Source of the DNA: Candidatus Pelagisphaera phototrophica
Lineage (GTDB): Bacteria; Verrucomicrobiota; Verrucomicrobiia; Opitutales; Opitutaceae
Direction of reading: 5' to 3'
Length of the DNA: 64,000 nucleotides
Assembly: GCF_014529625.1 (NCBI RefSeq)
Contig: NZ_CP076039.1
Span: forward strand, 1,054,001-1,118,000
Position 1 is the stretch's first letter; the number at the start of each line of letters is the position of its first letter. Positions 3,018 to 45,186 of the stretch are shown piece by piece. Under the pieces are notes generated by a model, which saw only the letters and a program-made list of their open reading frames with translations, did no database searches and was not told the DNA's origin. The translations under genes and the position numbers were made by a program.

Positions 3018-3063
3018 TTAGCTCTTCCTCTTGATGCGGCTTATTCTTATCTAGTGCCGCATT

Positions 3064-3991: not shown

Positions 3992-4010
3992 CTTTATGAG
4001 ATTAGGTTTT

Positions 4011-24411: not shown

Positions 24412-24562
24412 GGGAGCTTAAGGAAGTCGATCGAAAATTCAATTGTCCCGTTCTCAGCGGCCAGTTGAAATGAAATTGCCGTTATTGAATCAAAACCTCA
24501 ATTACACCCTTGATCGTTGACCCTGTTTCCCCCCTCCTTTGGGTTCAATAGGTAAAGGGTGA

Positions 24563-25138
24563 CTTATCGATGCGACACACGCTTTGGGGGTGCGAGTCCG
24601 CTATGACGATATCTCCAATATAGGGCGTTATATTACCAACGTAAGAGAGTGCCTTTTGGCTACGAGGTTGGATGAGGTTGAAAAACTCGCTATCGGGTAT
24701 TTCCACGAAGCCCAGATTGTATGGACGGGAGCGTTTGGAACGAGTATTGGAATCAGTGGGGCTACTATGATTTTGGATTCGATAGCGGACTTGCTGGTAA
24801 TTCGGGATCTGCGGACGACTTTCTCTTATGCCCCAAAATTCAATGTTACTTATTCGTTCAACGAATCGACCGAATTGTATTAGAAAACGGGTGACGGAAT
24901 TCATAGCAATGACGCTCGTGGATCGACTATATCGGTCGATCCCATCGAGGTATCTCCTATTGAATTGGTTGATCCACTGGCTGGATCAGTGGGAAACGAA
25001 GTGGGTGTGATCTACGATTGGAATGACAAACTGAATACCTCTGTACCTCTTTGGGGTTTGGACCTAGGCTCCAGACTCCTTTACGTGGGAGATGTTGGTA
25101 ACACGGAAACCTCTCGGCCGAGCGCTTCCCTCACTTGA
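24563..25138 (+). pseudogene. Outer-membrane beta-barrel/porin-like remnant with in-frame TAG
   Basis: One reading frame runs from just after a TGA at 24560 to a TGA at 25136-25138 with a single TAG inside (24881-24883). It reads GYFHEAQIVWTGAFGTSIG, VIRDLRTTFSYAPKFNVTYS and FNESTELY-stop-KTGDGIH, then GSVGNEVGVIYDWNDKL. Alternating hydrophobic/polar strands suggest an outer-membrane barrel, perhaps of the alginate-export porin kind. No start codon or signal peptide is present. Probably the broken 3' part of a porin gene. Coding status is supported by the uniform frame; the family is a guess. Confidence 0.4.
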
Positions 25139-25466
25139 GCAAGACGTTGTTCAGGCCACCGAAACTTTGGGACCACAAAGTCCAGCTCATTATAGGCATC
25201 TACCTCGGAATCAATTAATTGTGAGATTACCAATCAGTAGACGCTCTGTGAAAAACCAGTCAAGACTGGGGCAAAATGGCTAGTAGATGTGTCGCCTCGC
25301 TCGGCAGACCCCCCGACATCGTCCCCTTCTTCACCGACCGACCAGGGTAAGCTCGACATCAACTGCTATTCCTATCTCGCAACTCTGAGGGGCGAACTTG
25401 TATTGTGTTCCTTCCCATCTTAGTCATTGTGTGAAAGTTTCCGAACGATTCCTTGGATAATCTCTT
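25139..25466. other. Intergenic region upstream of the PQQ-repeat gene
   Basis: No gene recognised; it presumably holds the promoter for the gene at 25467. No clear -35/-10 pair or operator was identified. Confidence 0.3.
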
Positions 25467-26819: not shown

Positions 26820-26880
26820 GCTGTCTCCGAATATCTATTTATATTGTTTGCCCCGTTCTGTTCTGTTAAACTTCAAACCA

Positions 26881-27261
26881 ATGAAGCCCGACCTCATTCG
26901 CTTATCCTCTAGTTGGGCTCTGTGCGTGGGCGTATTTTCTTGGCTCGCCGCAGGTGCTGAAAACCAGGCTTTTCCGCCGCATACCTTCACCTTGCCAGAT
27001 GGCTACGAGCTGGAGCTTGCCGCGGCTCCCGGGCTCGTCGAGCGGCCGATGCATATGTATTTCGATGACGAGGGGGCCCTTTACGTCACGGATAGTTCCG
27101 GGGACAGTCGGCCTGCGCCGCTTCAGCTCGCGGAACCGAGCCATCGTATTCTGCGTCTCGTCGATAAGGACGGCGATGGCGTCTTCGCTTCTCTGCGTCG
27201 TGGGCACAAAGAACGTTATTATATTTTAGAGAATACAAAGTTAATTCCGATCACAGTATGA
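26881..27261 (+). pseudogene. Truncated PVC-type membrane-bound dehydrogenase (TIGR02604-like), N-terminal fragment
   Basis: From the ATG at 26881 there is a signal peptide (LCVGVFSWLAAGA), then FTLPDGYELELAAAPGLVER, PMHMYFDDEGALYVTD and HRILRLVDKDGDGVF. This is the start of the large sorbosone-dehydrogenase-like propeller proteins of PVC bacteria, which are many hundreds of residues long. After DGDGVF the homology stops, and 24 unrelated codons lead to a TGA that overlaps the ATG of the next gene. More than 85 percent of the gene is missing, probably through a deletion ending just upstream of 27258. Confidence 0.65.
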
Positions 27262-28847
27262 ACGAACCCTATCACGCTAAGAACGGCCTTCATCGTCGCG
27301 ATCTCATCAAAGGCGTTACCGCCGCCAGTCTAGGTCTTGCCACTGGTTCAATGGGGATCCCTGAGTTGCTAGGTCAGGCGCCTGTATCCAATTCCTCAAA
27401 ACGAAATCTAATCCAGATCGAAAATGCCAAACCCGGCACACGCGACTGGCTGCTCACGAACACGTTCACCGATCCCTTGAAGCGTAGAAGCGGCATTGGC
27501 AGCGGACGTAGCACGTATATCGAAGGCTACTGCTCAGCCAATAGCGTGCGGGCGGGCGAGAAATTGCAGATCATGGTAAGCACGGATCCGGAAACCGCGT
27601 TCAAATTGGAGATCTTTCGGACCGGTTACTACAACGGAGATGGCGCTCGACTGGTGAAACGTTTTGACGCGCTCAAAGGCGTCCCTCAACCGGTACCACC
27701 AATTGGCGAGAACTACATTCACGAATGTAGCTGGAAACCCTCGGTTGAATTTACTATTCCCGACGATTGGTTGAGCGGCGTTTATCTGGGAAAACTGACT
27801 GGAGAGTACACGGGAACGCAGAGCTACGTCATTTTCATCGTGCGCGATGACCGACCCTGCGATCTGCTGTTTCAATGCAGTGACCTGACCTGGTCTGCCT
27901 ATAATAGGTGGCCGACTGATTTCTCCATTTATTCCAGGCATGAAGGGCGTTCCAGCACTAGCGTGCCCAGCGGATCGGTGAGCTTCGATCGGCCTTATGC
28001 CTTGTTCACTCACCCGGTCAATAAGATCAAGGCGTCCGTGGGTTCCGGCGAATACTTGCCTTGGGAATTTCCCTTGGCTTTTTGGCTGGAGCAGCACGGT
28101 TACGATGTCTCCTACATTTCCAATGTCGACACGCATGCCGACCCGAAGGGCTTGCTGCGTACGAAGGGATTTATCTCGGTTGGGCACGACGAGTACTGGT
28201 CATTGCAGATGTACGACAATGTACTCAAGGCACGTGACGAAGGAGTTAGCCTAGCGTTTCTGAGCGCCAATGCCGTTCTTTGTGTCGTACCGATGCTGCC
28301 TGCTTCAGACGGTACGCCCAATCGCGCGATACGTCGGGAAGGTTGGTTCTTTCCGCCGGAATATGGGAGCGGTGACGCCAGGCGAAATGTCAATCAGGAA
28401 GGCTTCGAACCCGTCATGGGGCCGGATGGCGCTTTATTGATGGGGAACCGGACGACTCCCCCGGTCATGGGGGCTGGCGATTGGAGCTGCGCCAAACCGG
28501 AGCATTGGCTCTTTGAAGGGACCGGGATGAAGAAAGGAGACTCGATCGAAGGTATCGTTGGCTGGGAGTGGCATGGCGCCCCGATGATGGACCTGCCCGG
28601 AATGCAGATCGTAGCCGAAGGCGAAACTTCGATGAACGGCAAAAATCCAGGCCATTACACCGCCACAATCTACGACGGCCCGAAGGGCAACGTGGTCTTC
28701 AACGCCGCCACGATCTGGTGGGCCAACGGCTTGTCCAGCCCGCCCGGACACAAAACCCCGGTCAGACATGGCGTCGCTCAACAAGGCTCGGACGAGCGCG
28801 TCCAGAAAATCACCCACAACCTATTTCAACGTATAATAAAACCTTAA
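27258..28847 (+). CDS. Tat-exported N,N-dimethylformamidase-beta-like protein
   Basis: A 529-residue protein. The Tat signal is HRRDLIKG followed by a hydrophobic stretch. The body matches the large-subunit domain of N,N-dimethylformamidase: EIFRTGYYNGDGARLV, IPDDWLSGVYLGKLTG, LTWSAYNRWP, SFDRPYALF, WLEQHGYDVSYISNVD, SVGHDEYWSLQM and AFLSANAVL. The known enzyme is a metallo-amidase; no small subunit is encoded nearby, and homologues in marine bacteria are uncharacterised. The start overlaps the stop of the truncated dehydrogenase (ATGA), a by-product of the deletion rather than a true operon. Confidence 0.78.
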   Translation: MNEPYHAKNGLHRRDLIKGVTAASLGLATGSMGIPELLGQAPVSNSSKRNLIQIENAKPGTRDWLLTNTFTDPLKRRSGIGSGRSTYIEGYCSANSVRAGEKLQIMVSTDPETAFKLEIFRTGYYNGDGARLVKRFDALKGVPQPVPPIGENYIHECSWKPSVEFTIPDDWLSGVYLGKLTGEYTGTQSYVIFIVRDDRPCDLLFQCSDLTWSAYNRWPTDFSIYSRHEGRSSTSVPSGSVSFDRPYALFTHPVNKIKASVGSGEYLPWEFPLAFWLEQHGYDVSYISNVDTHADPKGLLRTKGFISVGHDEYWSLQMYDNVLKARDEGVSLAFLSANAVLCVVPMLPASDGTPNRAIRREGWFFPPEYGSGDARRNVNQEGFEPVMGPDGALLMGNRTTPPVMGAGDWSCAKPEHWLFEGTGMKKGDSIEGIVGWEWHGAPMMDLPGMQIVAEGETSMNGKNPGHYTATIYDGPKGNVVFNAATIWWANGLSSPPGHKTPVRHGVAQQGSDERVQKITHNLFQRIIKP

Positions 28848-28903
28848 ACGTGATCTCAGTATTCCCCCGACTGCGTGTCAATTTATCCGAAATAATCTAA
28901 AAA

Positions 28904-28946
28904 CCACGCCGCCTTGCTGCGTAGCTACGTCGAGACTTCGGCGTGG
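28904..28946. repeat. Palindromic hairpin element
   Basis: Perfect 8-bp arms CCACGCCG (28904-28911) and CGGCGTGG (28939-28946) enclose 27 bases that contain a 10-base palindrome CGTAGCTACG (28920-28929). No T-run follows, so it resembles a REP/BIME-type element more than a Rho-independent terminator. It lies between the dimethylformamidase-like gene and the chimeric remnant at 28985. Confidence 0.6.
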
Positions 28947-28984
28947 AATCTTATTGAACTCGTCAAAATTATCCCAAAAACCAC

Positions 28985-29274
28985 ATGAACGAATCCCAGA
29001 ACCCTCAGCGCGGCCTTCATCGTCGCGATCTCATCAAAGGCGCGACTGCGGCCAGTTTAAGCCTTGCAGCGGGCTCGATAGGGATCCCTGAATCCCTTGG
29101 GCAATCATCCGTATCCAGTTCATCGCGACAAAACCTGTTCCGAATCGGGATGTGGGACCCGACGATCGCCCGAATGTCCTCTTTGTTATTGTAGGCGATT
29201 TGAATGTGGTGCTGGGTTCATACCTTGACTCCGCCCGTCATCCGCATTATACTAACGCTAAATCGCTAAATTGA
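28985..29274 (+). pseudogene. Chimeric remnant: Tat leader of a dimethylformamidase-like gene joined to a sulfatase N-terminus
   Basis: From the ATG at 28985 the protein is a paralogue of the preceding gene's leader: GLHRRDLIKGATAASLSLAA then IGIPESLGQ. Similarity ends after about 50 residues. From 29164, in another frame, the sequence reads DRPNVLFVIVGDLNVVLGSY, then LDSARHPHYTNAK and a TGA at 29272. This is the start of a type I sulfatase (PNVLFIxxDDLN), with the second metal Asp replaced by Gly. Neither part can make a functional enzyme. It looks like a deletion joint between two former neighbours. Confidence 0.65.
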
Positions 29275-29383
29275 GGTGCAATTTTATTGAGATCTCTTAA
29301 ATTTCTAAACAGTTTTAATACGAAGACATCATGTTATCTCTTTCGAACAAATATTTCGAAGTTTTCTCGTTTCTAAATTTGGT

Positions 29384-29408
29384 AGCGGCCGATCTTCGAG
29401 CGGCCGCT
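29384..29408. repeat. Short GC-rich inverted repeat
   Basis: Arms AGCGGCCG (29384-29391) and CGGCCGCT (29401-29408) are perfect 8-bp complements with a nine-base loop in otherwise AT-rich sequence. It may be a terminator stem without a T-run or part of a repetitive element. The flanks 29275-29531 hold no gene. Confidence 0.45.
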
Positions 29409-29531
29409 GATCCCGCTAAGCGGAATTCAGACATCGCCTCGTCGGTGGCTATTAAAAAATAATGGCCGCTCGGAGTTCGGCTGCACCCAAAGAAAAGTTC
29501 GGGACTTAACCCGATAATCGTTATCCTAATC

Positions 29532-30821
29532 ATGAATAAAAAAATAAATCGCCGTAACTTCATAAAAACAACCGCCACTGCCGCTATCGGCATGCCGACC
29601 CTGATACCGGCCAGCGCACTCGGCAAAAATGGGGCCGTGGCTCCCAGCAACCGAATTATAGTGGGGGGCATTGGTTTAGGCCCGCGCGGACGAAAGGTCC
29701 TTGCGGGATTCTTCGCTCAGAAGGACTGTCAATTCGTCGCCATTGCCGATGTTCAAAAAGAGCGTCGCGAAATCATCAAACGTTTAGCGGACCGCGAATA
29801 CGGGAATACGGATTGTGCCACCTACGACGACATGTCCGGAGTCTTGGGGCGCGATGACATCGATTCGGTTATCATCGCTACCGGCGACCGCTGGCATACT
29901 ACGGCCTCCATCACCGCCGCCCGCGCAGGCAAGGATATCTATTGCGAGAAGCCTTGCGCCATGAATATCATGGAATGCCAGCAACTGGATGACACGGTTC
30001 GGAAACATAAGCGCGTCTTCCAAGCGGGAACGCAACGGCGAAGCGTGCCCAATTTCAAGCTGGCAGTCGATCTTGCCCGCAGCGGCAAATTGGGGCAGGT
30101 GACGTCCGTTCATGCGGGTATTTTGGAGTTACAGCAATACTTGGAGCCTTTGCCGGCCGAACCAGAGCCGGACCCTTCGGATGTTAATTGGGACAAGTGG
30201 CTCGGCCCGTCGCCGTGGATGGACTTTAACGCTGCCTATTGCAGAGGTCGCTGGCGCAATCACGCGGGATTGTATGCGGCATGGAGATTGCCTGAGTGGG
30301 GGTCCCATACAATTGACGTCTGCCAGTGGGCGGCCGATGCCGATGGAACGACTCCTATTGAATACGAGCCGGTATCGGATGGTGAGATAGTCGCGAAGTA
30401 TTCGAATGGCGTCAAACTGGTGATGCGCCTTTCCGGTTTTGAAGGGGAAGGCGTATGGCAGGAAGGACTCGGTACTTGCCCTGTTCGTTTCGAAGGTGAT
30501 GAAGGCTGGGTAGAAGCAGGGGATGCGAAGGCAATCGTAACCAGTAATCCCAAGATGCTAAAAAACAAAACCTACGACCAGCTCAACGGCACGGATCCAG
30601 TGTTGCATGCTCGCAACTTCCTTGATTGCGTTAAGACTCGGGAGGACCCGATTTGCAACTCGACGGCGGTTCGCTACGGACACATGGCCTGCTTCGCGGC
30701 GGCCATTAGTTGGAAGTTGGGACGCAAGGTCACCTTCGATCCAAAGAAGGAACGCTTCATCGGAGATACGGAAGCCAATCGCATGCGCACCTACAAACGC
30801 CGCAAACGGTATAAGATATAG
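29532..30821 (+). CDS. Tat-exported Gfo/Idh/MocA-family oxidoreductase
   Basis: A 429-residue protein. The leader NRRNFIKTTATAAIG is Tat-like. The NAD(P)-binding start is VGGIGLGPRGRKVL, VAIADVQKERR is the second strand, and VIIATGDRWHTTASITAARA and DIYCEKPCAMN carry the family EKP motif with its conserved Lys. The C-terminal substrate domain includes WDKWLGPSPWMDFN and RNHAGLYAAWRLPEWGSHTI with a candidate catalytic His. Exported Gfo/Idh/MocA proteins are abundant in PVC bacteria and probably act on sugars or glycosides in the periplasm. It stands as a single intact gene between two remnants. Confidence 0.9.
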   Translation: MNKKINRRNFIKTTATAAIGMPTLIPASALGKNGAVAPSNRIIVGGIGLGPRGRKVLAGFFAQKDCQFVAIADVQKERREIIKRLADREYGNTDCATYDDMSGVLGRDDIDSVIIATGDRWHTTASITAARAGKDIYCEKPCAMNIMECQQLDDTVRKHKRVFQAGTQRRSVPNFKLAVDLARSGKLGQVTSVHAGILELQQYLEPLPAEPEPDPSDVNWDKWLGPSPWMDFNAAYCRGRWRNHAGLYAAWRLPEWGSHTIDVCQWAADADGTTPIEYEPVSDGEIVAKYSNGVKLVMRLSGFEGEGVWQEGLGTCPVRFEGDEGWVEAGDAKAIVTSNPKMLKNKTYDQLNGTDPVLHARNFLDCVKTREDPICNSTAVRYGHMACFAAAISWKLGRKVTFDPKKERFIGDTEANRMRTYKRRKRYKI

Positions 30822-31036
30822 TAATTGTTAATAGGATACGACCTCGGTCGCGGGTTGCAGGATGACCAGTATTCGTAGGAGAAGACGGGAGGAGGCATCA
30901 TGTAGCTACCACTTCCTGACATGAGCCTGTCGAATGGGTCGGGGCGTATCTTGTTGATTTAAAATCTTATCGCTTTTACCATACGCTCATTCCTTTTGGT
31001 AAGTAGTATTACAATTTGTGAATACTAAGAACTTAT

Positions 31037-31267
31037 ATGAGAAACTACTTCCTCCTTACGCTTCTGGTTGTATTCGCATTCATTGCTATCGGTAACGCCG
31101 CTGCCAGTGAAGCAGAGCCGATGAACGTCGTGTTCATTCAAGCCGATGATCTCGGCTGGAGCGATACCGAGCTTGATGGAAGCTTTACGCTCTCTACGCC
31201 GGCCGTATCTGGAAATAAACTCTTCATCAGAACTGGCGAATACTTGTACAGTATCTCCAAGGGATAA
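31037..31267 (+). pseudogene. Chimeric remnant: sulfatase 5' end fused to a PQQ-propeller 3' end
   Basis: A 76-codon frame. The first 45 codons encode a signal peptide (FLLTLLVVFAFIAIGNAAAS) and MNVVFIQADDLGWSDTEL, the canonical start of a sulfatase. From there the frame continues without shift as LDGSFTLSTPAVSG and LFIRTGEYLYSIS. This differs at two of 31 residues from the C-terminus of the PQQ-repeat protein at 25467 but at many synonymous sites. The donor was therefore a second, diverged PQQ gene now lost. The joint lies at GAGCT-GATGGAAG, where short microhomology is possible. Confidence 0.75.
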
Positions 31268-31336
31268 ACTGGAAATTGTATGTCAAAAATGCTTCATTAA
31301 CCACGGAAAGAGAATCCAGAAACCCAAATCACCAAT

Positions 31337-31592
31337 ATGGACGCATCAGAATTTAAAGTCTCCGAATCCCTCGCCGCCACCGGCGGTTCGAAGGAGCTCA
31401 CAGACCGCGAAAAACACCTCATCGGTCTAGCCGTCGTATTAACCCGCGGTTGTGAACACAAAAGAGGCATTGCAAAATCTAGAGGCGGTCTCTGTAGAGA
31501 TTCCGGATCAATTCTGGAATGATCTGGAGCCATTGGTTATGGATATGTCGGATTCGAGATTCATTGTAGAAATCAAAGATGTAATCGAATAA
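31337..31592 (+). pseudogene. Chimeric remnant: carboxymuconolactone-decarboxylase-like 5' end and aldo/keto-reductase-like 3' end
   Basis: The frame from 31337 reads SESLAATGGSKELTDREKHL and IGLAVVLTRGCEH, like the start of CMD/AhpD-family proteins, which continue with CxxC chemistry that is absent here. From 31452 a different frame reads NTKEALQNLEAVSVEIPDQF and WNDLEPLVMDM to a TAA at 31590-31592. This resembles the C-terminal helix region of aldo/keto reductases (EALxNLxxVxxEIPxxxW). The joint again links the front of one gene to the back of another. Families are assigned on short stretches only. Confidence 0.5.
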
Positions 31593-31724
31593 AAATGCTA
31601 AAACTCCAGTTTTTGGCTAAAAGTCTATGAGCATCAACTGGTTAGGTTTATTATTATTACGTTTTTCTCTATCGCTTTCCATAAGCGGTTGATCAATAGG
31701 GTCTTTTGAAAACACTTTCCCGCT

Positions 31725-33248
31725 ATGAATCCCTTTTCCGATTTAAGTCTTCTCTTTGGAGACATGCACAACCATTGCGGCATCTCTTATGCCCATGGAT
31801 CTTTGGAAGATGCTTTAAGCAACGCTCGTGAGCAGCTCGATTTTGTGAGCATTACCGGCCATGCACATTGGCCTGATATGCCGGAGCCGAGCGATGACAT
31901 TCAGTACATTATTGATTTCCATAAGGAGGGTTTCGCCAAGCTAAAGGCCGGTTGGCCAAAGATGATGGAAACATTGAGGCAGTTTAACGATGAGGGAAAC
32001 TTCGTTGTCTTTCCAGGCTTTGAAGTTCACTTCGGCACCTGTGGCGATCGCAATATGCTTTACAAAGATTTGGAGGGAGAGATATTGTATCCAAAAAATT
32101 TGGAAGAATTGCACAATCAACTGCGTGCGTTGCGAGAGCAGGGTAGGGATGCCATTGCTCAGCCGCACCACCTTGGCTATCTCAAAGGCACGCGTGGCAT
32201 CGATTGGAACAGCTTCAGTCCCGAGTTTGCTCCCTTTGTTGAAATGCTTTCGATGCACGGCTGCTCTGAATCGTCGGAGAATATTAAGCCGTTCTTGCAT
32301 TCCATGGGGCCAAGCGATTGGCAGAGTACAATTCATTATGGTTTGAAGCAAGGGCATGTATTTGGATTTTCAGGCGGTACGGATCATCATAGCGCCCATC
32401 CTGGCAGCTACGGGCATGGAATGACTGGGCTTTGGGCGGAGTCGGGCAATCGCGAAGATGTCTGGGACGCATTGTTGAAGCGTCGTATGTTCGCTTTGAC
32501 CGGCGACCGAATGGATTTGCAGTTCGCGGTGAACGGCCTGCCTATGGGATCAGAGATTGCGGCGTCTAAAAAGAGACGTATCGAATTTTTCCTACAAGCC
32601 GGCGGGGCTATCGACTGCGTAGACATCTTGCGCGATGGCGAATTGGTGAAGCGTTTTTCACAGTATGAAATGGAACCCACTGGCGAAACCAATGACGATC
32701 TTGTTCATACGAAGATCTACTTGGAGCTGGGGTGGGGTGCCCGTCACAAAACCTGTAATTGGGAGGTTGAGTTGGGATTGACGGATGGCGAAATCAAATC
32801 GGTGGAGCCGCGCTTCCGCGGACGTGAAGTGGTATCGCCCGTGGAAGCGAAGGACACGGGTAGCTACTACATCAGTAAGGTGCTGGAGACAGGAGATCAG
32901 TCCGTTCGATTTGAAACCGTCACGAGCGGCAATCCGAATAATTCAACCAATCTGTCACAAGGGGTGTGTTTAGAAGTGAGTATGCCGCGAGACGCAACCG
33001 TTTGGGCAAACCTCAATGGCAAGCGGGTTGAGTGGCCGTTGACCGCATTGATGGAGGGAGCTCGCTCGGGAGTAATGAAGGACATCGACTCCCCTGCTTG
33101 GCGTTTCAATCGCGCGCCCTCGCCGAATCAGTGGAAATGGTCCGGGGAATGGGAGGACAGTGAAGGGGAAGGCAGCTCCTACTATATGCGTGTGCGACAG
33201 CGCAACGATCAGTGGGCGTGGTGCTCACCGGTATTTTTAAACCGCTAG
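31725..33248 (+). CDS. DUF3604/PHP-like metal-dependent hydrolase
   Basis: A 507-residue cytoplasmic protein without a signal peptide. FGDMHNHCGISYAHG (11-25) supplies H15 and H17, SITGHAHWPD (42-51) two more histidines, VFPGFEV an acidic ligand, AQPHHLGYLKG and GGTDHHSAHPGSYGHG further metal ligands. This matches DUF3604, a PHP-superfamily relative found beside sulfatases in marine bacteria. The beta-rich C-terminal half includes CVDILRDGELVKRF. The metal ligands suggest a phosphoesterase-like or hydrolytic role; the substrate is unknown. Monocistronic. Confidence 0.75.
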   Translation: MNPFSDLSLLFGDMHNHCGISYAHGSLEDALSNAREQLDFVSITGHAHWPDMPEPSDDIQYIIDFHKEGFAKLKAGWPKMMETLRQFNDEGNFVVFPGFEVHFGTCGDRNMLYKDLEGEILYPKNLEELHNQLRALREQGRDAIAQPHHLGYLKGTRGIDWNSFSPEFAPFVEMLSMHGCSESSENIKPFLHSMGPSDWQSTIHYGLKQGHVFGFSGGTDHHSAHPGSYGHGMTGLWAESGNREDVWDALLKRRMFALTGDRMDLQFAVNGLPMGSEIAASKKRRIEFFLQAGGAIDCVDILRDGELVKRFSQYEMEPTGETNDDLVHTKIYLELGWGARHKTCNWEVELGLTDGEIKSVEPRFRGREVVSPVEAKDTGSYYISKVLETGDQSVRFETVTSGNPNNSTNLSQGVCLEVSMPRDATVWANLNGKRVEWPLTALMEGARSGVMKDIDSPAWRFNRAPSPNQWKWSGEWEDSEGEGSSYYMRVRQRNDQWAWCSPVFLNR

Positions 33249-33314
33249 TTGGATTTTCAAGTTACGTGACTGCAGACTTCTCAACCTTGATTTTCTCAAA
33301 TCCCGTTTTAGAGT

Positions 33315-33438
33315 TTAACCACAAAAAGCACAAGAAATACAGAATGAGCAGCTTACGTTATCTTCTAATTAATTTGATCGTTCGCCCTGTCGTTCAACTG
33401 CCCTATTTTTTGTGACTCATGTGTTTTTTTGTGGTTAA
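33315..33438. repeat. Inverted repeat TTAACCACAAAAA...
   Basis: The left arm TTAACCACAAAAAGCACA (33315-33332) and right arm TGTGTTTTTTTGTGGTTAA (33420-33438) are complementary apart from about two positions and enclose about 87 bases. The arms resemble an ACCACAxAxxxCACA sequence type that recurs in intergenic DNA of environmental bacteria; a truncated ATTAACCACGGAAAG also appears at about 31298. It may be a miniature mobile element or a structure ending both convergent transcripts. Confidence 0.55.
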
Positions 33439-33577
33439 GATAAATTTTTTTTTTATATTAAAAAATAAATCTGAAGTGTAAATAAATATTGGGTACGAAA
33501 ACTTCAGCTGATGCACAAAAGTGGGAACTCGCCAAAGTCCTAAAACGGTCATTATATAAAATAGCCGAACACGCACA

Positions 33578-33733
33578 ATGAAAGGCAGTTCACGCAAAAC
33601 GGGTGCAAGCACCAACATTTACCGCCGGCATTTTGTGAGGAATCTTGCCAAAACCCTGGGTGCATTGACCCTATTGCCACTGTTGAACCTGAATGCTGCT
33701 GGGGCTCGTAGTCCTTGGATTTCTAGAATCTAA
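33578..33733 (+). pseudogene. Tat-leader remnant of a lost exported protein
   Basis: A 51-codon frame beginning MKGSSRKTGASTNIYRRHFV and continuing with RNLAKTLGALTLLPLLNL and NAAGA. It has a twin arginine, a hydrophobic core and an Ala-x-Ala-like end, so it is a complete export leader. Only about ten further codons follow before TAA. Exported DUF1501, Gfo/Idh or sulfatase-type proteins in this genome use such leaders, so this is probably the 5' stub of one of them. Confidence 0.5.
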
Positions 33734-33768
33734 TTGCAGTCGGAATTCAGAATCCGACATTGATAAAG

Positions 33769-34359
33769 CTACCCTTGACCAAGTGGCCTCAGAGGCTCGT
33801 TGACACTCTCCATCTCCTCAGGAGTAGGGAAGTGCTGCTGCAAGTCGTCCAACATCTCTCTAAGAGGCTTTCGGATTACATCACGAAAGGCCTTGTCCAT
33901 GATCTGTCGATTTCCTCCCGGAGGGGGAGTGTCTCTCTGATTGTAAGTTCCTAGTGTATTCAATTGTCCGTACTTTGAGAGCTTTGCGCTGATAACCGCA
34001 ACTAAATCACCGGAATTGTCTTGCTCGAATCGAAAGGCATGGATTTCCAGCAGTGGGCCTGGCCCCGGATCATCTCGCTCTTCTAAGATACGAATTTCGA
34101 TCGGAAGTTGATAAGCGTAGAGTAGTTTGGTTAGCACCACTCTGAAGTCTTCGCGGCGATTCTTTTCCATGGAATTCGCCACATCGGGCATGTTTACCTG
34201 ATAGATTGGGCTCGCTCTGTGCTCGAATTGCACGAACAGAGTCTCGGACTTATCCAGAAAAATATATTGGTCGGTGTCCTGTGGCCCCATACTCGCGCAT
34301 CCCGCAAGCAGAAAGACTAAGAATAGGAGGATCAGATGACTTGGATGAATACCTTTCAT
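33769..34359 (-). CDS. Lipoprotein of unknown function
   Basis: A 196-residue protein. The signal peptide ILLFLVFLLAGC has a lipobox with Cys21, so it is lipid-anchored. The mature part is weakly beta-stranded (FVQFEHRASPIYQVNM, LLEIHAFRFEQD, LVAVISAKLSKYG) and ends in a basic helix (DKAFRDVIRKPLREMLDD). The layout recalls DUF4136-type outer-membrane lipoproteins, but no diagnostic motif is visible. It is the neighbour of a sulfatase on the same strand, 143 bases downstream of that gene's stop. Confidence 0.7.
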   Translation of the reverse strand: MKGIHPSHLILLFLVFLLAGCASMGPQDTDQYIFLDKSETLFVQFEHRASPIYQVNMPDVANSMEKNRREDFRVVLTKLLYAYQLPIEIRILEERDDPGPGPLLEIHAFRFEQDNSGDLVAVISAKLSKYGQLNTLGTYNQRDTPPPGGNRQIMDKAFRDVIRKPLREMLDDLQQHFPTPEEMESVNEPLRPLGQG

Positions 34360-34502
34360 TTCAATTAAGAATCCAGCCTATTTTTCTGCGATCCAGATAT
34401 TGCGGAAGTGGCTGGGATTTCCATGGGCTTGGAGATCGGGGGTTCCTTTGGGGATAATAACCGGATAGTGCCGCTAGCAACAGGAAATAAGTCAATGGGC
34501 TA

Positions 34503-36077
34503 TTACCTGTTTTGGGCTCCCTGAGGTTGGTCCCAGAGACGGTAGGGGTCTCCCCATTTTATCATTTCGCTGAGCAGAAGGGCTTCCATTTCTTCTCGTT
34601 TGGTGGCGTAGGCTGGGTTTTCGGCGAGATTTACTTGGTGACGCTTCGGTTTGAATCCGGTCATAGCCACCACGGCACGATCGTGGTGCTGAATTAGAAA
34701 TTCGTTGGGATTGTCCTTCAAATTGAATAGCTGGGTTTCCTGGATGTACCCATCAAGCACATCGTACTTGATCAGTTTCCAGTCTCCCTTTTTGACTGAT
34801 CGCATTCCCGGTTTAGAGCCTCCGTTGTAGACTCCGTAGAGAACATCGCGAACCGTGTTTCTTTTCCCCATGAGAACGGGCTTAAAACTAATACCATCGA
34901 ATGTACTTGGCTTTTCAATACTCGCCAGATCACAGAAAGTGGGTAGCAGGTCCATGAGGTAGGTGTTCCCTTGAGCGCGGCTGCCCGCTTTGATTCCTGG
35001 TCCTCGAATGATCATAGGTACCCGCCAGGTGTGCTCGTAGAGATTCTGTTTTCCCATCAATCCGTGCCGACCCACCGCGATGCCGTGATCAGCAGAGTAA
35101 AAGATGTAGGTGTTTTCCAACTCGCCCATTGCCTCGAGTTTGTCGAGCACTCTGCCTACCTGCCGATCGATATTCTCGATACAGGCGTATTCTCGGCCCA
35201 GCTCGTTTCTAATGGTTGCTTCATCTCTCTTGAGCAAAACTCCCTGGACGGCGACCTCGTCGCGAAGTCCTGGATGACCATGATGGAAAGGGTGAGCGGG
35301 AAGGTAGTTCTCCTGGAGCGGGGGGGCTTGGGGATTGGGAGAAGTCGGAATGTCTGTATTATCAGCCCCGTATTTATCGAGCAGGTCAGGCTTCCCATGT
35401 CTAGGGTCGTGCGGATGAGTGAAGCCAAAGAATAGGAGGAAGGGGTCTTCCTTTGTCCCCTTCTCTCTCTCCTTCAGGTAGTTCATGACTTGCTCCCCGT
35501 GCCACCAACTTCCAGTCTCGTCTTCGGGGCCGTAGTTGGTTTGGTCGTTGCGTCCCAAGTACAATCGATTGGCCCCCTCGTAGGTATTGCCAATTTTGCA
35601 GGTGCGATAGGTGTCGTAGCCGGCCCGAAAGAAGAGAGCAGGCATACTTTCGTAGTCCGGATCGTTGGGAGTGAGCTCCGCGAGCAATGTCCTTGGCTGG
35701 TGCACGTAGGTTTTCGGATTCATGCGTGGGTAGCGCTTGGCGATTTCTTGCGTCCGCCACACATTGATTGACGTCTGTACCATGGTGCGGGAAGGCAGGC
35801 ATACGGCACCTACCCAGGAACCCATATGATGGGCGCTATCTAGAACCATTCCTTCACGGGCGAGGCGATCTAGATTGGGGGTCTGGCAAACTTCATTCCC
35901 ATAGGCGTTCATCGTAAGTGGCGATTGGTCGTCGACAAAAATGAAAAGAATGTTTGGTTTCGACGCGCTCGCCACATGGGGACGGTCTTGTGAGATTGCG
36001 GATTCTGTAAAGAGAATGCCGGCGAGAATTAGAATGCTGGCTTGGCGGAAAACGGAAGAGGGTAATAGAGGTTTCAT
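34503..36077 (-). CDS. Type I sulfatase (S1 family)
   Basis: About 524 residues from the ATG at 36077; a TTG at 36104 is a weaker alternative. The signal peptide is ASILILAGILFTES. KPNILFIFVDDQSP supplies the two metal aspartates, and CLPSR (Cys near residue 93) is the canonical CxPSR modification motif turned into formylglycine. ADHGIAVGRHGLMGKQNLYE is the second metal-binding region. A C-terminal WDQPQ ends the protein. It is probably periplasmic or secreted and desulfates a polysaccharide or a small sulfate ester. Formylglycine-generating enzyme is not encoded in this window. Confidence 0.92.
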   Translation of the reverse strand: MKPLLPSSVFRQASILILAGILFTESAISQDRPHVASASKPNILFIFVDDQSPLTMNAYGNEVCQTPNLDRLAREGMVLDSAHHMGSWVGAVCLPSRTMVQTSINVWRTQEIAKRYPRMNPKTYVHQPRTLLAELTPNDPDYESMPALFFRAGYDTYRTCKIGNTYEGANRLYLGRNDQTNYGPEDETGSWWHGEQVMNYLKEREKGTKEDPFLLFFGFTHPHDPRHGKPDLLDKYGADNTDIPTSPNPQAPPLQENYLPAHPFHHGHPGLRDEVAVQGVLLKRDEATIRNELGREYACIENIDRQVGRVLDKLEAMGELENTYIFYSADHGIAVGRHGLMGKQNLYEHTWRVPMIIRGPGIKAGSRAQGNTYLMDLLPTFCDLASIEKPSTFDGISFKPVLMGKRNTVRDVLYGVYNGGSKPGMRSVKKGDWKLIKYDVLDGYIQETQLFNLKDNPNEFLIQHHDRAVVAMTGFKPKRHQVNLAENPAYATKREEMEALLLSEMIKWGDPYRLWDQPQGAQNR

Positions 36078-36396
36078 GGAGGTTTTACTGGGGAGTGACT
36101 TCAAGGTTAGTGTTTAGACGATATATACCGAGCAGCGATAGCGTACTGCGAGAATTCCTTAAAGTACGAACCAAAAGGGCTGAGGCATGACCCTTACATC
36201 CTTGGTTGGTAAAAGGGTGCCCTGCTGCGATTGCAGCTCGGGGCTTCGCGATCGTAAGCGGTGGGCAATACGTAAGGAGCTATGGGACACTTTTATAGAG
36301 TCTGGCCTATTGACTGGTTAGGAGTGAAATTGGGACAAGACTCTTTAGTGGGCGAATCTAAAGCTACTGAAACTTTTAAGTCGTCGCTAGTCCAAA

Positions 36397-36729
36397 ATGA
36401 ACCCGTTGTCCCAATTGTATGAAACCACTTACCGTGCGATCGCGGGCAGGGTTTGGCCGATTGTCGTGGCACTATTGGCCCTCTATTTGGTGGTTCGGAT
36501 TTTGAAGCAGGGACATCCGAATGAGGATGTCTTTTGGTCGTGGCCACGGATCTTGGATCTAACGCAGCTCACACGCATGTTTGTGGTCAATGGTAACATC
36601 ATGATCCGCACCTTCTGTCTCCTTATCGGCTTCGGATGGTTTATCCAGCAAGGGGCTCGTTTGGGTGAGGTGACTTTGGCGGCTAATCATATCCTACTTC
36701 AGTTCGTGTCCTTTAGCGCATTTTTTTAG
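36397..36729 (+). pseudogene. MATE-family efflux transporter, internal fragment
   Basis: The frame encodes two or three membrane segments: VWPIVVALLALYLVVRIL, then a loop with FWSWPRILDLTQLTRMFVVN, IMIRTFCLLIGFGWFIQQGA and LAANHILLQFVSFSAFF. These match the middle of DinF-like MATE transporters, which are about 440 residues long. At SAFF the frame hits TAG, but a one-base shift gives FLDGG, the expected MATE continuation, so a frameshift ended it. The N-terminal and C-terminal thirds are missing. Not functional. Confidence 0.65.
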
Positions 36730-36937
36730 ATGGTGGAAGTAGGTTGCGGCAGAGATCGTTTCTGGTGAGCGATTTTAAAGTCGTTTTCAAATACCCAAGC
36801 CCAGTGATCTGGGTTTGTTAGCGTCTGCTCAATAGGTTTGAATTTTACTGTATGGCAAAGAGTTATTGCATCCTACGCTTAAGGGTTGAAAATCGAGATT
36901 GTACGGAAACGCTTTTTAACTCAATCATTAGCAAATC

Positions 36938-38359
36938 ATGAAACGACGTGACTTTGTCAGATTCGTATCAGCTGGAGCCCTTAGTACCCGTATCCTGGGT
37001 ACTTCTTCACTAACCGGAACGCGTCATTCTGGAGCAATGGATCGTTTCGGTGGTTGGACCGGAAAGAAGTTCAAGGCGACCGGCTTTTTTCGCGTAGAGA
37101 AGGATGAGCGGTGGTGGTTGGTTTCTCCCGAAGGCAATGCCTTTCTCAGCTGGGGGATCAATCACTTGTACCCGGACTTGTTCAAGCAAGAATACAATAC
37201 GCTGGCTTGGCAGAAGAAACTGGGAATTGAGAATTTAGATGGGCCGGCATTCAATGCCGCTTTGAGAACATGGTTTCTAGGACTGCGGGAAAAAATGGGA
37301 TTTAATACGGTGGGCGTGCACAATGTGCTTAGTATCGTCAACCAGCCTAAGCCGGCAATGCCCTACATGCAGCCGATTCACTTTGTCGAAATCCCTCACT
37401 GGAGAACCGAGATACCAGATAGCAACTTCAGGGACATTTTTTCTTCAGACTTTGAGGGTCATTGTGACGGTATGGCCAAGAAAATTGCTGTGCCGATTAT
37501 GGATGACCCCTTTCTGTTGGGCTATTCCATGACGGACTGCCCGCTGTTTACCGAGGAAGACTTGCGGGAGCGGCCCGATACCATTGGTGGTGCCCGCCGT
37601 CCGTCACGAATCGGTTGGCCGAGGAGACTCAGGAATTTAGGGAGCTCGGCTGCGGGGAAGGAGGCCTACGTTGATACGATGCAGGAAATTTACCGCGGTC
37701 GCATCAAAGATTTCAATACGACCTATGGTACCAAGTTCAAGTCCTTCGATGCCTTGGCGGGTGCTGAGAATTGGCGGCCAGATACACGTCTGTCCAATGC
37801 CAATGAGACGCGCGATAATATCGTATTCCTAAAACGCGTGGTGGGCAGATACTATGAAGTGACTCGCAACGCGATACGCCGGTACGACCCCAACCACATG
37901 TTTGTAGGCGACAAGCTCCATGCCAATACGGATTCGCTAGACACGGTACTTCCCGTCACCAGCAAATACACGGATATCATATTTTACCAGATGTACGCAC
38001 GGTACGAGGTCCAGAAGCCGGGACTGGATCGTTGGACCGAGAAGGTAGACAAGCCCTTTATTAATGGTGACTCGGCCTTCACCATGACGACGGATACGAT
38101 GCCTAGACCTTATGGTCCGATTGCTGATGACTTAGCCCAGCGGGCTGAGTGGACGGAAGAGTTTTTCCGCAATGCGTTCGCTCGCCCGGAGTTCGTGGGC
38201 TGGCACTATTGCGGTTTGATTGACGCCTCGCTGCTTGTTCCGAGAAAATGGAGTCGACAGCATTCCGGTTTACTTGATGGATACGGAAATCCCTATCCAG
38301 CCCTGGAGAAAGTTCTCAAGACTTGTTCGAGCGAAATCTATTCGATCGCTCAAGCTTGA
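36938..38359 (+). CDS. Tat-exported glycoside-hydrolase-like protein (TIM-barrel, agarase/GH50-like)
   Basis: A 473-residue protein. The leader KRRDFVRFVSAGALS is Tat-like. The body starts GFFRVEKDERWWLVSPEGNA followed by FLSWGINHL, a pattern found at the start of GH50 beta-agarases and related clan-A hydrolases. Further TIM-barrel features are MGFNTVGVHN, DPFLLGYSMTDCPLF, YDPNHMFVGDKLH, FYQMYARYE, FINGDSAF and EFVGWHYCGLIDAS, with candidate catalytic acids in the last segments. Probably hydrolyses a marine polysaccharide. No family number can be fixed without a search. Confidence 0.65.
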   Translation: MKRRDFVRFVSAGALSTRILGTSSLTGTRHSGAMDRFGGWTGKKFKATGFFRVEKDERWWLVSPEGNAFLSWGINHLYPDLFKQEYNTLAWQKKLGIENLDGPAFNAALRTWFLGLREKMGFNTVGVHNVLSIVNQPKPAMPYMQPIHFVEIPHWRTEIPDSNFRDIFSSDFEGHCDGMAKKIAVPIMDDPFLLGYSMTDCPLFTEEDLRERPDTIGGARRPSRIGWPRRLRNLGSSAAGKEAYVDTMQEIYRGRIKDFNTTYGTKFKSFDALAGAENWRPDTRLSNANETRDNIVFLKRVVGRYYEVTRNAIRRYDPNHMFVGDKLHANTDSLDTVLPVTSKYTDIIFYQMYARYEVQKPGLDRWTEKVDKPFINGDSAFTMTTDTMPRPYGPIADDLAQRAEWTEEFFRNAFARPEFVGWHYCGLIDASLLVPRKWSRQHSGLLDGYGNPYPALEKVLKTCSSEIYSIAQA

Positions 38360-38470
38360 TGAGAATAGGGAAATTCCCGGTAGACGATTCGAGAGGATTT
38401 ATTGGACAGTCTCTCAGATCGATCCACTACCTTGTCGCAACCGTGTCTGTGACAGTACTTCCAGATGCGA

Positions 38471-39106
38471 TTACAACGAGCTTTGGCGTTTTAGAATCGC
38501 AACGTGGCGATCGACGAACTTGCCGGGTGTTGGCAGTTCTCGGGACATCTCGTTGGCTTCGGTAACCACGAGCTCGCCTCCCTGTTCCTTTATGACTTCA
38601 AGCGCTTGTTGATGTTCGCGGTCGAAGTAACTCGTGATGATGAGCCGACCGTTTGGGGAGAGCTTCTCTAGGGCTTTGTGGTATATCTTTTCCCAATCGC
38701 TTTTACCGTTCCACAAATTCTGGTGGCGGACGAAGACGACGTCGAACTCGCTGGGCAGTTGTTGGTGGTCGTGAAGCTGGGTGGCGTCGCCTCGAAGGAA
38801 TTCAAATTCTGCATTCGGATTTCCTCTGAATCGGGCGGCGGCATCCGCGATTTCTCGGGCTCGAATATCAAGACCAACGAATTTCAGTTTTCTGTTGTTG
38901 GCAGTTTCCTTACTAAACCGCCCGAAAAAATTCGCTAGGGTACCCGCTTCGTTGCACGCTCCACAGGCCAAATTCAGCAGCTGCATATCGCCGCCACTCG
39001 CGAGGTAGCGGCTTAGCGCTTCGTCTGACTTGGTAACCCTTGACAGCATCTCATCGAGACGCTGCATATCTTCTGCGAGATATTGCTGATTCGTAGAGCG
39101 ATCCAT
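38471..39106 (-). CDS. Class I SAM-dependent methyltransferase
   Basis: A 211-residue protein. LLNLACGACNEAG (about 43-55) is motif I with the G-x-G-type loop in modified form, FVGLDIRAREI is motif II, FEFLRGDATQLHD is motif III and FDVVFVRHQNLW is motif IV, followed by LSPNGRLIITSYF. These define the Rossmann methyltransferase fold; the substrate is unknown. No signal peptide, so cytoplasmic. Convergent with the glycoside-hydrolase-like gene, with 111 bases between and no strong terminator. Confidence 0.8.
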   Translation of the reverse strand: MDRSTNQQYLAEDMQRLDEMLSRVTKSDEALSRYLASGGDMQLLNLACGACNEAGTLANFFGRFSKETANNRKLKFVGLDIRAREIADAAARFRGNPNAEFEFLRGDATQLHDHQQLPSEFDVVFVRHQNLWNGKSDWEKIYHKALEKLSPNGRLIITSYFDREHQQALEVIKEQGGELVVTEANEMSRELPTPGKFVDRHVAILKRQSSL

Positions 39107-39242
39107 AAAAGAACCACCGTTAGGGAGAAGACATAGTATGTCGATAGCTTTAGGGCTTTATGGATTTTAGGGATCTGGGATTCTATGCTGCTATTAATTT
39201 GCCTGAAGCGTATGTTGTGGGTTCACTCGTTGTTCCTCGAAA

Positions 39243-40697
39243 ATGAATAAACGTCTATTTACCCTAATTCTTCTCAATTCTTTTGGGTTCCTTGCTCTTG
39301 ATGCTTCCGATCGCCCAAATATTCTTCTGATCCTCTCAGATGATCATAGCGTACCTCACTTAGGAGCCTACGGGGACGCCAATTGTCGGCGATTTATCAT
39401 AACGCCGCATTTGGATGCCTTAGCCGATGAGGGTATGCGTTTCGATCGTGCGTACACGGCGGCTCCGCAATGCGCTCCATCGAGGACCGCTATTTTTGCG
39501 GGCCGATCTCCAGTGGGATTGTCTGCGACCCGTTTTGCCCAGCCGGCACGTTCGGAAACGACTTTCTTTACAGATGTCTTGAGAGAGAGAGGCTATTGGG
39601 TTGGGCTGGCAGGGCGGCATCAGCATTTGGATGGGAAGAACCGAGACTTGGACCACGTGACGGATACGCTTGTGGAGCTAGATGTGCGGGATCGAGCGTT
39701 TACGCAGCGATTTGATCACTTTGTGAGGGGAGCCTCTACTAAAAACGAGGCGATTCATGATACAGACGAAGTGGTGGGTGCCATCTTAGATGGTGTTCCA
39801 GACGACCAACCTTTTTTTCTCTATTTCGGGTTTAACCAGCCTCATCGGAGATGGGGAGATGATCATGAAAAGATCGATCCTTCGAAATTAGTCTTGCCGC
39901 CAGACTGGCCGGACTTGCCTGAAGTGCGTTTGGATTATGCGAAATATCTAGCGGAGGTGCGGGATCTGGATATTGGATTCGGATTGATAGAGAATGTATT
40001 GGAAGAACGGGGACTAAAGGAAAACACGTTGGTTATTTTCATGGGAGACAACGGGGAGGCACTTCTACGAGGCAAAGGAACTTTAGCTCAGCGTGGAACG
40101 CATGTCCCGCTTTTGGTTCGCTGGCCTGGCTATGTGAAACCGGGAACGGCCAGCGATTCTCTGGTTAGCGGGGTGGATCTTTCCGCGACAATTTTGGAAG
40201 CGGTAGGCTTGGAAACTGCTCCAGGCATGACCGGGGTCAGCTTTTTCGACGAATTGCGAGGCAAGCCCTTCGAAGGGCGTGAGATGGTTTTTGCTGAACG
40301 TGGCTGGCACTTCGGACCCATTGGCCGAAGCGATGGTTTCGATTTGTCCCGTTCTATTACGACCCGTCGCTATTTGTACCTATACAACGCAACTCCGGAA
40401 AAGATATTTTCCCCAGTAGACATGGGTCGGAATCCGGGATGGCTCGCCATTCAGGAAATGCATGAAGAGGGGACCTTGTCCGCTTTGCACGAAAGCATCT
40501 ACTTTCAGAATCCGCGGCCGTTGTTCGAGCTGTACGATCTACAAGAGGATCCTTTTCAGTTGGAGAACCTAGCGGGTAAGGCTAGGGTCAAAGCGGTTGA
40601 GACGAAACTTCGGACGGAGATGGATAAATGGATGGTAAGGGAAAGCGATTTTTTGCCGCTGCCCAGCCACATTCAGCAGCAAGTCAATCGAAAGTAG
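39243..40697 (+). CDS. Type I sulfatase (S1 family)
   Basis: A 484-residue protein. The signal peptide LFTLILLNSFGFLALDA is followed by RPNILLILSDDHS (Asp33, Asp34 as metal ligands). CAPSR (Cys77) is a canonical CxPSR formylglycine motif. MGDNGEALLRGKGTLAQRG is the distal metal-binding region, and YDLQEDPFQLENLAG is the typical C-terminal signature. It is most like the N-sulfoglucosamine-sulfohydrolase-type branch, judged by GRHQHLDG in place of GKWHL. Overlapped and followed by a sulfatase remnant. Confidence 0.9.
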   Translation: MNKRLFTLILLNSFGFLALDASDRPNILLILSDDHSVPHLGAYGDANCRRFIITPHLDALADEGMRFDRAYTAAPQCAPSRTAIFAGRSPVGLSATRFAQPARSETTFFTDVLRERGYWVGLAGRHQHLDGKNRDLDHVTDTLVELDVRDRAFTQRFDHFVRGASTKNEAIHDTDEVVGAILDGVPDDQPFFLYFGFNQPHRRWGDDHEKIDPSKLVLPPDWPDLPEVRLDYAKYLAEVRDLDIGFGLIENVLEERGLKENTLVIFMGDNGEALLRGKGTLAQRGTHVPLLVRWPGYVKPGTASDSLVSGVDLSATILEAVGLETAPGMTGVSFFDELRGKPFEGREMVFAERGWHFGPIGRSDGFDLSRSITTRRYLYLYNATPEKIFSPVDMGRNPGWLAIQEMHEEGTLSALHESIYFQNPRPLFELYDLQEDPFQLENLAGKARVKAVETKLRTEMDKWMVRESDFLPLPSHIQQQVNRK

Positions 40698-40702
40698 TTA
40701 GT

Positions 40703-40972
40703 GTGATTAGATTGCTGATACTATTTTGTTCAGCCATCGCTTTGATCGCGACTGGTTGCACGAGGAAAGAGTCTTATTCCAGTCGACCAGAAGCGAACGT
40801 TTCAAAAGCTCTCTTGCCGGCAAAGGGTAGACCCAATATCGTGATTATCCTAGCGGATGACCTTGGGGTGGGAAACATTCAGGCGCACTTTCCGGAAAAC
40901 AAAATCGCTACGCCTTATTTGGATAGGTTTTTGTCGTTGATATCATTGACCTCTACCGATCGTCTCATTTAA
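40703..40972 (+). pseudogene. Sulfatase lipoprotein, N-terminal fragment
   Basis: From a GTG at 40703 the frame gives a lipoprotein leader (LLILFCSAIALIATGC with lipobox IATGC) and then GRPNIVIILADDLGVGNI and ENKIATPYLDRF, the start of a type I sulfatase. Homology stops after about 70 residues, before the Cys motif, and a TAA follows at 40972. At least 400 residues are missing. The remnant follows the intact sulfatase at 39243, so a tandem sulfatase pair lost its second member. Confidence 0.75.
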
Positions 40973-40984
40973 ACCTCAAATCCG

Positions 40985-41941
40985 ATGAGAAAACACGAAG
41001 TTTTGTTAATGGGTAGGATCAGAGACATGATGAAGGCTGAGACGGATCGTCTCTTCCATACATATACAGTTCACGCACTGCATCGGAGCGAAGATCCCGA
41101 TGCCCTCGTAGAGAAGGTTAAGGATCGTATCACCGCAATAACTACGAATGGCGTCTTGGGCGCGAGTGGGGAATTTATGGCTAGATTTCCAAATCTGAAA
41201 GCCGTGATATGCTTCGGCGCCGGTATTGACAATGTAGATCTGGAATACGCGAAGCAACAGTGTATACAAGTATCAAACACTCGAGGGGTTTTAAATGACG
41301 ATGTCGCTAATTTGGCTGTGGCGCTTCTGCTTGGAATTTCTAGGGAAGTTGTGGAAGCGGACAAATACGTGCGAAGAGGTGATTGGATTAGGAAAGGGAA
41401 AATGGGCTTGCAGAAAAGCATTCGTGGTCGCCAGGTGGGTATTCTAGGCCTGGGAGGGATTGGCAGGGATTTCGCTAAAAAGCTAGAGGTGTTTGGATGC
41501 CAATTGGCCTATCATAATAGGTGCGAAAACAAAAATATTCCCTATCGCTATTATTCGAATTTAACGGAAATGGCGAGAGATTCAGAATACTTGGTCGTGA
41601 TTTGCCCGGCGACCTCGGAGACCAGAAACTTAGTAGATAGCGAAGTCATTGACGCCTTGGGACCAGATGGAACCTTGATCAATATCGCGAGGGGATCTAT
41701 TGTCGACGAGGAGGCCCTCGTTGAGGCCTTGCAAGACGGAAGACTGGGGGCATTCGCTTCGGACGTGTTTGCCCACGAGCCCCATGTGCCGGAAGCCCTC
41801 TTGGAAATGCAAAATGTCATCCTTGCACCGCATATTGGTAGTGCAACGGTAGATACTCGTACAGCTATGGGTGAATTGATGTTGAAAAACCTGGAGCGGT
41901 TTTTTGCAGGAGAGCCACTAGAGACGCCGGTACGCCTTTAG
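40985..41941 (+). CDS. D-isomer-specific 2-hydroxyacid dehydrogenase
   Basis: A 318-residue protein of normal length. GILGLGGIGRDFAKKLEVFG (152-171) is the NAD-binding Rossmann loop. The catalytic triad is present: R236 in NIARGS, E265 in FAHEP and H283 in APHIGS. The family reduces 2-oxoacids or glyoxylate/hydroxypyruvate, or oxidises D-2-hydroxyacids. In this context it may serve sugar-acid catabolism. It starts 12 bases after the stop of the truncated sulfatase and may have lost its own promoter to that deletion. Confidence 0.9.
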   Translation: MRKHEVLLMGRIRDMMKAETDRLFHTYTVHALHRSEDPDALVEKVKDRITAITTNGVLGASGEFMARFPNLKAVICFGAGIDNVDLEYAKQQCIQVSNTRGVLNDDVANLAVALLLGISREVVEADKYVRRGDWIRKGKMGLQKSIRGRQVGILGLGGIGRDFAKKLEVFGCQLAYHNRCENKNIPYRYYSNLTEMARDSEYLVVICPATSETRNLVDSEVIDALGPDGTLINIARGSIVDEEALVEALQDGRLGAFASDVFAHEPHVPEALLEMQNVILAPHIGSATVDTRTAMGELMLKNLERFFAGEPLETPVRL

Positions 41942-43193: not shown

Positions 43194-43743
43194 ACGGAGC
43201 TCTTCTACTACCTGAGAATTGAACGATTTCAGAAATGAGCGAATTGATTTGTGGGCATTCGTCAATCGGGTTCGGTTCTCTCGATCAGTATAGCAAATGA
43301 ACCCCAGTTAGGGAATAGAGTTTTTGCGGGATGCGTTGGTGAGCAGGCAGATTAGGAGCACGCGTGGGAATACGAATCACATCTTTGGAGCGGACTCGAC
43401 GAATGCGGCGACGCAAACCCAAACCAATCTGGCTGATCGTAAGTGCGTGCTGCGGTTGCTTAAATTTTTCAAGACCATTCCGGGCGGCGAAAAGGTGGCC
43501 ATCGATAGGATGATGGATGATACCGCGAGTCGCGAAACCTACCGTATTAAAAGAGAGACCGCAATCACGGTCCGCGCAAGATGCGAGGCTCAGACTGGGA
43601 AGGGCTCATGTGCATCCGCGATCTGAGACGAGACGTGTTTGGGTAGATTGACCTAGGTATTTCGAAAGCTTTATTCGCGTTGCTTGTTTGCGAATTTATC
43701 GCCAACATTCGTTCTCCTTTTATTTCAACCCAATAGTTCCCCT
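43194..43743. other. Intergenic gap between divergent genes
   Basis: About 550 bases. A plus-strand frame at 43324-43626 has no recognisable motif, unusual composition and no leader, so it is not called. Promoters of both divergent genes must lie here, but none was identified with confidence. Confidence 0.35.
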
Positions 43744-44940: not shown

Positions 44941-45186
44941 TTTTCGGCATGGGTCGGAGGCTGAGACGGTGGTTTCTGTGAGTCGTTTCGGTGGGGCAGT
45001 TGGCCTGTAAATTGATTGAAGGACAGGTCGCTGACATGTCGATTTGGGAGGGGTTGTCACCTTGACGAGACGGTCTACAGTTTGATTTCTCGATTGGCAG
45101 AGATGACTTTCTCGCACACTTTAGTCGAAAGCTGAAGTGCGCTTCCAAAAAGGACAAATTCTGATTGGAGGGCCAGGTCAAAGGAA

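Follow-up and report, generated by a model that had tools for sequence, protein, structure and literature searches.

The window analysed here is a stretch of 64,000 nucleotides, bases 1,054,001–1,118,000 of the single-contig, 4.09-Mb genome of Candidatus Pelagisphaera phototrophica (G000), in which a series of short or composite open reading frames (ORFs) lies among intact genes between 26881 and 40972. The initial annotation, made from the letters of the window, had taken seven of these ORFs for the stubs and chimeras of lost genes. Comparison of full-length proteins with window 24400–41100 by tblastn confirms that all seven are truncated or chimeric genes, and for six of them congeners keep the full-length version, as the comparison across the genus that had been proposed as a check reveals; the exception, S2, is a cut copy of an intact neighbour within the window. 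The full-length reference genes contain no internal stops, and the points at which the genes are cut vary from one to another. The features are collected in Table 1.

Ten congeners, with genomes of 3.0 to 6.1 Mb, were searched besides G000; seven of the eleven genus genomes have a completeness of 90% or more with contamination of 5% or less, and most outgroups are draft genomes. In Opitutales bacterium UBA5694 (G006) the locus lies on contig 3 (228,452 bases; DIHO01000020.1), inverted and with the same gene order as the window, positions 88000–126335 of the contig corresponding to window 21861–56924. Because G006 is collinear at a DNA identity of about 91–96%, many of the breaks can be followed at the level of single bases. 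Over window 29332–39874 the structure of G006 is reproduced by L033 (PBDH01000003.1), a 17-kb contig that is filed under a Gammaproteobacteria genome, yet is collinear with this Opitutales locus; its marker protein is 94% identical and the contig is therefore probably misbinned.

Table 1. Truncated genes, deletion junctions and related features, in window coordinates
Feature	Position	Strand	Basis or comparison
J1: deletion junction	25122..25124		G006 has 3563 bp extra: sulfatase and sodium:solute symporter
S1: PVC-type haem-binding (DUF7133) gene remnant	26881..27261	+	Pfam, tblastn
S2: first 54 of 529 residues of a second DMFase-like gene	28985..29194	+	tblastn
Weak sulfatase trace behind S2, different frame	29161..29268	+	31% identity, E 0.008
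S3a: junction downstream of intact Gfo/Idh gene	30908..30917		Ambiguous interval of 9 bp
S3: in-frame fusion of a sulfatase 5' end with the end of a PQQ-repeat protein	31037..31267	+	tblastn
S4: first 44 of 105 residues of a CMD gene	31337..31522	+	Pfam, tblastn
S5: 3-keto-disaccharide hydrolase leader stub	33578..33733	+	tblastn
J6: deletion junction	34447..34455		G006, L033 and G005 longer by ~0.88 kb (886 bp)
S6: MATE gene, internal deletion and 3' end gone	36397..36729	+	tblastn
S7: first 76 of 540 residues of a sulfatase	40703..40972	+	tblastn against 540-residue G006 sulfatase

The remnants are assigned with differing precision. S1 corresponds to residues 27–147 of a 796-residue PVC/DUF7133 protein of G007 (69.6% identity), its homology to the intact gene ending at 27187, and the gene is full length in G007, G008 and G001. 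S2 matches the first 54 residues of the window's own intact DMFase-like protein (at 27258) with 66.7% identity; among the congeners no full-length orthologue of it was found, the matching G007 copy running off the end of its contig. A twin-arginine signal in S2 scores above the cut-off in NCBIfam but not in Pfam, and collinearity with G006 and G002 picks up again at 29268. S3 joins roughly the first 46 residues of a sulfatase (502 residues in G009) to the last 32 residues, 418–449, of a 450-residue PQQ-repeat protein (93.75% identity), S4 is the start of a CMD protein found in G002, and S5, the weakest of the seven assignments, covers residues 1–49 of a 239-residue hydrolase of G007 (51%, E 0.011; DNA match of 80% over 65 bp). 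S6 retains residues 1–25 and 204–291 of the 452-residue MATE protein of G005, residues 26–203 (about 560 bp) being deleted, and from 36735 onwards the window matches G003, the match opening within the final 8 bases of one of that genome's sulfatase ORFs. At S7 the junction is at 40931 and G006 is longer by 1634 bp. As a separate observation, a PQQ-repeat gene in G008 (L018/L019, 17494–20958 of the joined stretch) also looks broken, its ELDGSFTLST tail entering a different open frame.

Two further deletions, J1 and J6, left no stub and were absent from the initial list; the stretch lost at J6 encodes a 3-keto-disaccharide hydrolase in G006. Missing sequence between collinear flanks is plain at J1, J6 and S7, where G006 keeps whole genes, and is pieced together from several congeners elsewhere. 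G003 and G006 continue jointly past J1 by about 126 bp and past S7 by about 500 bp, while G005, which retains the full MATE gene, is collinear with G006 through J6; on the strength of this agreement at J1 and S7, and of this collinearity at J6, it is in all three cases the window's lineage that has lost sequence. The S3 sulfatase is retained in G009 and G002 and the S4 gene in G002. Since the full-length S1, S3, S4 and S6 genes come from more distant congeners (G001, G002, G005, G007, G008 and G009), these losses fall in the window's lineage or in its ancestors. Window 24500–25450, around J1, holds no clear genes and is present in G006 too and, up to the 25124 break, in G003, so that it is older debris.

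Short forms shared with relatives had been named at the outset as counting against the initial reading, and they do occur in part, for S5, though not for the set as a whole. S5 is inherited, with an identical short form in both G006 and L033, in each of which a one-base deletion shifts the frame; the stub has therefore not been maintained there, which argues against a function for it. At the S2 slot, G006 and G002 do have a common short ORF, bearing a leader that by eye resembles a twin-arginine signal, but it is another ORF than S2. The alignments suggest that G006 has lost its MATE gene as well, at a different point than in the window: homology of G006 to the G005 gene stops about 160 bp past the window's break, and there is no long MATE ORF among those listed. 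The apparent cut site in G006 lies at about 106041–106200 of contig 3, facing window 36470. The reverse case also occurs, 6.2 kb at window 45122–51369 being absent from G006, with G003 contigs matching across both points.

Junction sequences were scored over the 449 kb (281 kb + 168 kb, of 4086 kb) of chromosome compared with G006, counting +1 for each match and -2 for each mismatch when one end of the long form is set against the other, with 4000 simulated breaks as the control. This gave 26 clean junctions, 21 shortening G006 and 5 shortening G000, after three junctions with N runs in G006 and gaps with unaligned sequence in both genomes had been left out. The main test used the 14 junctions with a fit of at least 0.85, the other 12 (fit below 0.85) entering only into the figures for all 26. 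A score of at least 4 was reached by 7 of the 14 well-fitting junctions and 12 of the 26 overall, against 2.3% of simulated breaks; in an earlier run, made with 16 junctions from the first region, the count was 8, against 2.2%. A score of at least 6 was reached by 5 of the 14, against 0.13%. In the 449-kb set, direct repeats at the ends of deletions thus exceed chance expectation.

Within the window the junctions are of mixed kinds. The parents of S3a have ACTTCC in common (G006 on the left, G002 on the right), those of S3b overlap by the 7 bp CGAGCTT at 31167–31174 with 12 of 14 positions matching between them, and J6 has TTTGGGGAT against TTTGCGGAT, which match at eight of nine positions. 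J1 has a 2-bp overlap, CG, whereas S4 (at 31458) and S7 have no microhomology, and at S6a, with a fit of 0.72, a repeat is not clear. The junction repeats differ in sequence from one another, as judged by eye without a formal motif search. The microhomology-driven deletion first proposed for the locus is thus upheld as an excess at clean junctions over 449 kb, but not as a general rule within the window.

We consider it highly probable, with a likelihood of about 0.86, that the stubs are the debris of several deletions formed through short homology without RecA or Ku, in the course of ordinary gene loss. Several separate, kilobase-sized deletions would have hit an accessory block that encodes sulfatases, sugar oxidoreductases and haem proteins. 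Each of them most likely arose by replication slippage or when broken DNA was rejoined by alternative end joining, in many cases at direct repeats of about 6–12 bp and sometimes without any. Such deletions, falling in dispensable genes and presumably neutral, would have been retained, and the same process would be active chromosome-wide and in sister species. RecA would not be required if repeats shorter than 25 bp are taken as the yardstick, as in passages of PMC3386194. The mechanism is well known and no new one is needed.

Several points weigh against this interpretation. The simulated breaks did not pass through the alignment step and fit filter used on the real junctions, and the analysis of the joint sequences within the window yields a clear repeat at only three of seven junctions, with 2 bp at one, none at two and one unclear. 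The two parents at S3a, S3b and S4 come from different genomes, so that a repeat there is a cross-species reconstruction, and the junctions of S1 (whose parents are 73–81% identical), S2 and S6b are not placed at base level. The ancestral state is settled for few gaps outside the finding and some of these gaps may therefore be insertions. Finally, at 30893–31174 the spacer stands behind the sulfatase in G002 and before it in the window, so that a rearrangement or a lost paralogue is needed in addition.

An alternative, in which insertion sequences or transposons made the deletions and were themselves later lost, bears directly on the absence of mobile elements that had been proposed for the locus. 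A search with the DDE_Tnp_1 and rve families, the two transposase families used, and for repeats of up to 250 bp against 520 kb of chromosome sampled (window 20001–50000 masked) found no insertion sequence or remnant at the window's breaks, and no such repeat common to them and the sampled sequence. DDE_Tnp_1 has no match in the whole genome; rve has four, three of them with an internal stop codon. What might be taken as traces of past transposition are an rve match above the cut-off, carrying an internal stop, about 3 kb before the window, an 85-bp repeat at 43567–43651 that recurs in G003, G004 and G007, and the sole listed repeat of up to 250 bp, 66 bp long at 45015–45079, with a break of G006 at 45122, 43 bp away. 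That break is not one of the window's, however, and in the same search the window's own breaks had no such repeat; the junction repeats also differ from each other, and the congeners that are intact at the ancestral sites of J1, J6 and S7 have, by gene content, no element there. We therefore hold transposition to be very unlikely. Much the same can be said of false joins in the assembly of the window's genome: junctions other than S5 are indeed seen in G000 only, but this genome is a single 4.09-Mb contig, the S5 short form is present in two other assemblies and comparable microhomology junctions shorten G006, which leaves artefacts with little credence. Less probable still is a functional role for the short ORFs, as small proteins or as alternative forms of the genes. 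Several do retain their start codon together with a leader that looks like a signal, and the fusion in S3 keeps the frame, but two relatives carry a frameshift in S5 and the cut points differ between genes.

The remaining alternative is that some feature of these 14–16 kb makes breakage or deletion more frequent in them than elsewhere on the chromosome of the G000 lineage, in line with the hot spot of gene loss suggested in the initial annotation. Gaps were defined as differences of at least 500 bp with a shorter side of at most 600 bp; throughout the 449 kb there are 35, of which 26 shorten G006 and 9 shorten G000. Of the nine that shorten G000, four are found within 16 kb of this region (scan P 0.0165), and ORFs of at least 120 residues cover 0.72 of window 24400–41000 as against 0.83 of the surrounding 320 kb. 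The P value rises with the size of the scan, to 0.032 at 20 kb and 0.17 at 40 kb. No clustering is seen among the gaps that shorten G006 and, as the region was chosen because stubs had been noticed in it, the clustering of the G000-short gaps is at best suggestive. Each of the eleven genus genomes has at least 94 or at least 95 sulfatase matches, so that single sulfatase genes are probably dispensable, and tolerance of loss among redundant genes predicts the same picture. Local tolerance of gene loss is thus the simpler reading, and a true hot spot is improbable.

The survival of the 5' part with its leader, also suggested for most of these genes, describes the visible stubs but does not extend to deletion ends generally. 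The 26 clean gaps have 52 ends on the long form, of which 30 are intergenic, 10 keep the 5' part of a gene and 12 its 3' part; three genes that have a cut at either side are counted once per side. A bias for keeping gene starts was accordingly rejected; the apparent favouring of starts probably arises because a visible ORF needs one.

Some other candidate causes were set aside. An RNA element was rejected, the window having no Rfam match at the gathering score. Repeats within 20000–46000 amount to two pairs of paralogues and another two pairs that are short and weak; they bridge no break apart from the S3/PQQ pair, that is, the chimera itself, and the S2 paralogue pair. The 21 bases at 30920–30940, considered as a dispersed element, have exact matches in 3 of 155 loci, of which two are sequence of the window itself and the third is a contig of G002.

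A number of observations lie beside these arguments. The rve match mentioned above (G000:C1:1050975-1051262) is the only one in the genome above the family cut-off. The 85-bp sequence occurs at 74–94% identity once in G003, four times in G004 and twice in G007, and only once in the window's genome; the 270 bp around it depart from the sequence of G006, and its RNA fold is unremarkable (z -1.04). Close to it, about 200 bp at window 43375–43576 have 73–78% identity to places in several congeners, and the ORF at 43324–43623 matches no NCBIfam family and no plasmid record. A segment of about 86 bp at G000:C1:992178-992263 (L124 18178–18263) matches at least nine G007 contigs at 76–90% identity and is like a dispersed repeat family. 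In window 1–4000 the first two 2-kb steps have a G+C of 0.32 and 0.42, the rest of the window lying at 0.43–0.56. A literature search that included the genus name returned nothing on this locus, from which we make no wider claim of absence from print.

The gene loss at this locus is ordinary but unusually legible. The guess made from the sequence, of microhomology deletion without a mobile element, is partly upheld by the comparison, with corrections as to the hot spot and the survival of gene starts. A bolder and rather doubtful proposal is that the genus forms a natural series of genome reduction, with very few insertion sequences and no Ku, in which dispensable blocks of sulfatase genes erode fastest in some lineages. 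Were this so, collinear sisters of about 3.0 to 6.1 Mb would offer single short-homology deletions still readable at base level. The genus could be a clean natural data set on the shrinkage of bacterial genomes by deletion.

Non-homologous end joining by Ku and LigD would also yield deletions with little homology. Unlike in such systems, Ku (PF02735) was found in none of the eleven genus genomes, with a profile that, among 14 control genomes, detected it in B. subtilis only. The closer likeness is to the spontaneous deletions of Salmonella, for which passages of Selection-Driven Gene Loss in Bacteria (PMC3386194) give homology of 6–15 bp for 19 of 30 sequenced deletions and of at most 4 bp for 11 of 30: the deletions described there share with ours their kilobase size and a similar mix of junction homologies, but are those of laboratory isolates, whereas here they are fixed species differences in an uncultured genus, seen through about 7% divergence. 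Passages of The Extinction Dynamics of Bacterial Pseudogenes (PMC2916853) likewise describe unselected genes as being inactivated and removed, with large deletions as the likely main route. The locus resembles such pseudogene loss under deletional bias in that genes not kept by selection would have been removed, and differs from the Salmonella strains treated in those passages in belonging to a sulfatase-rich genus of the Opitutales, with no DDE_Tnp_1 found in the window's genome.

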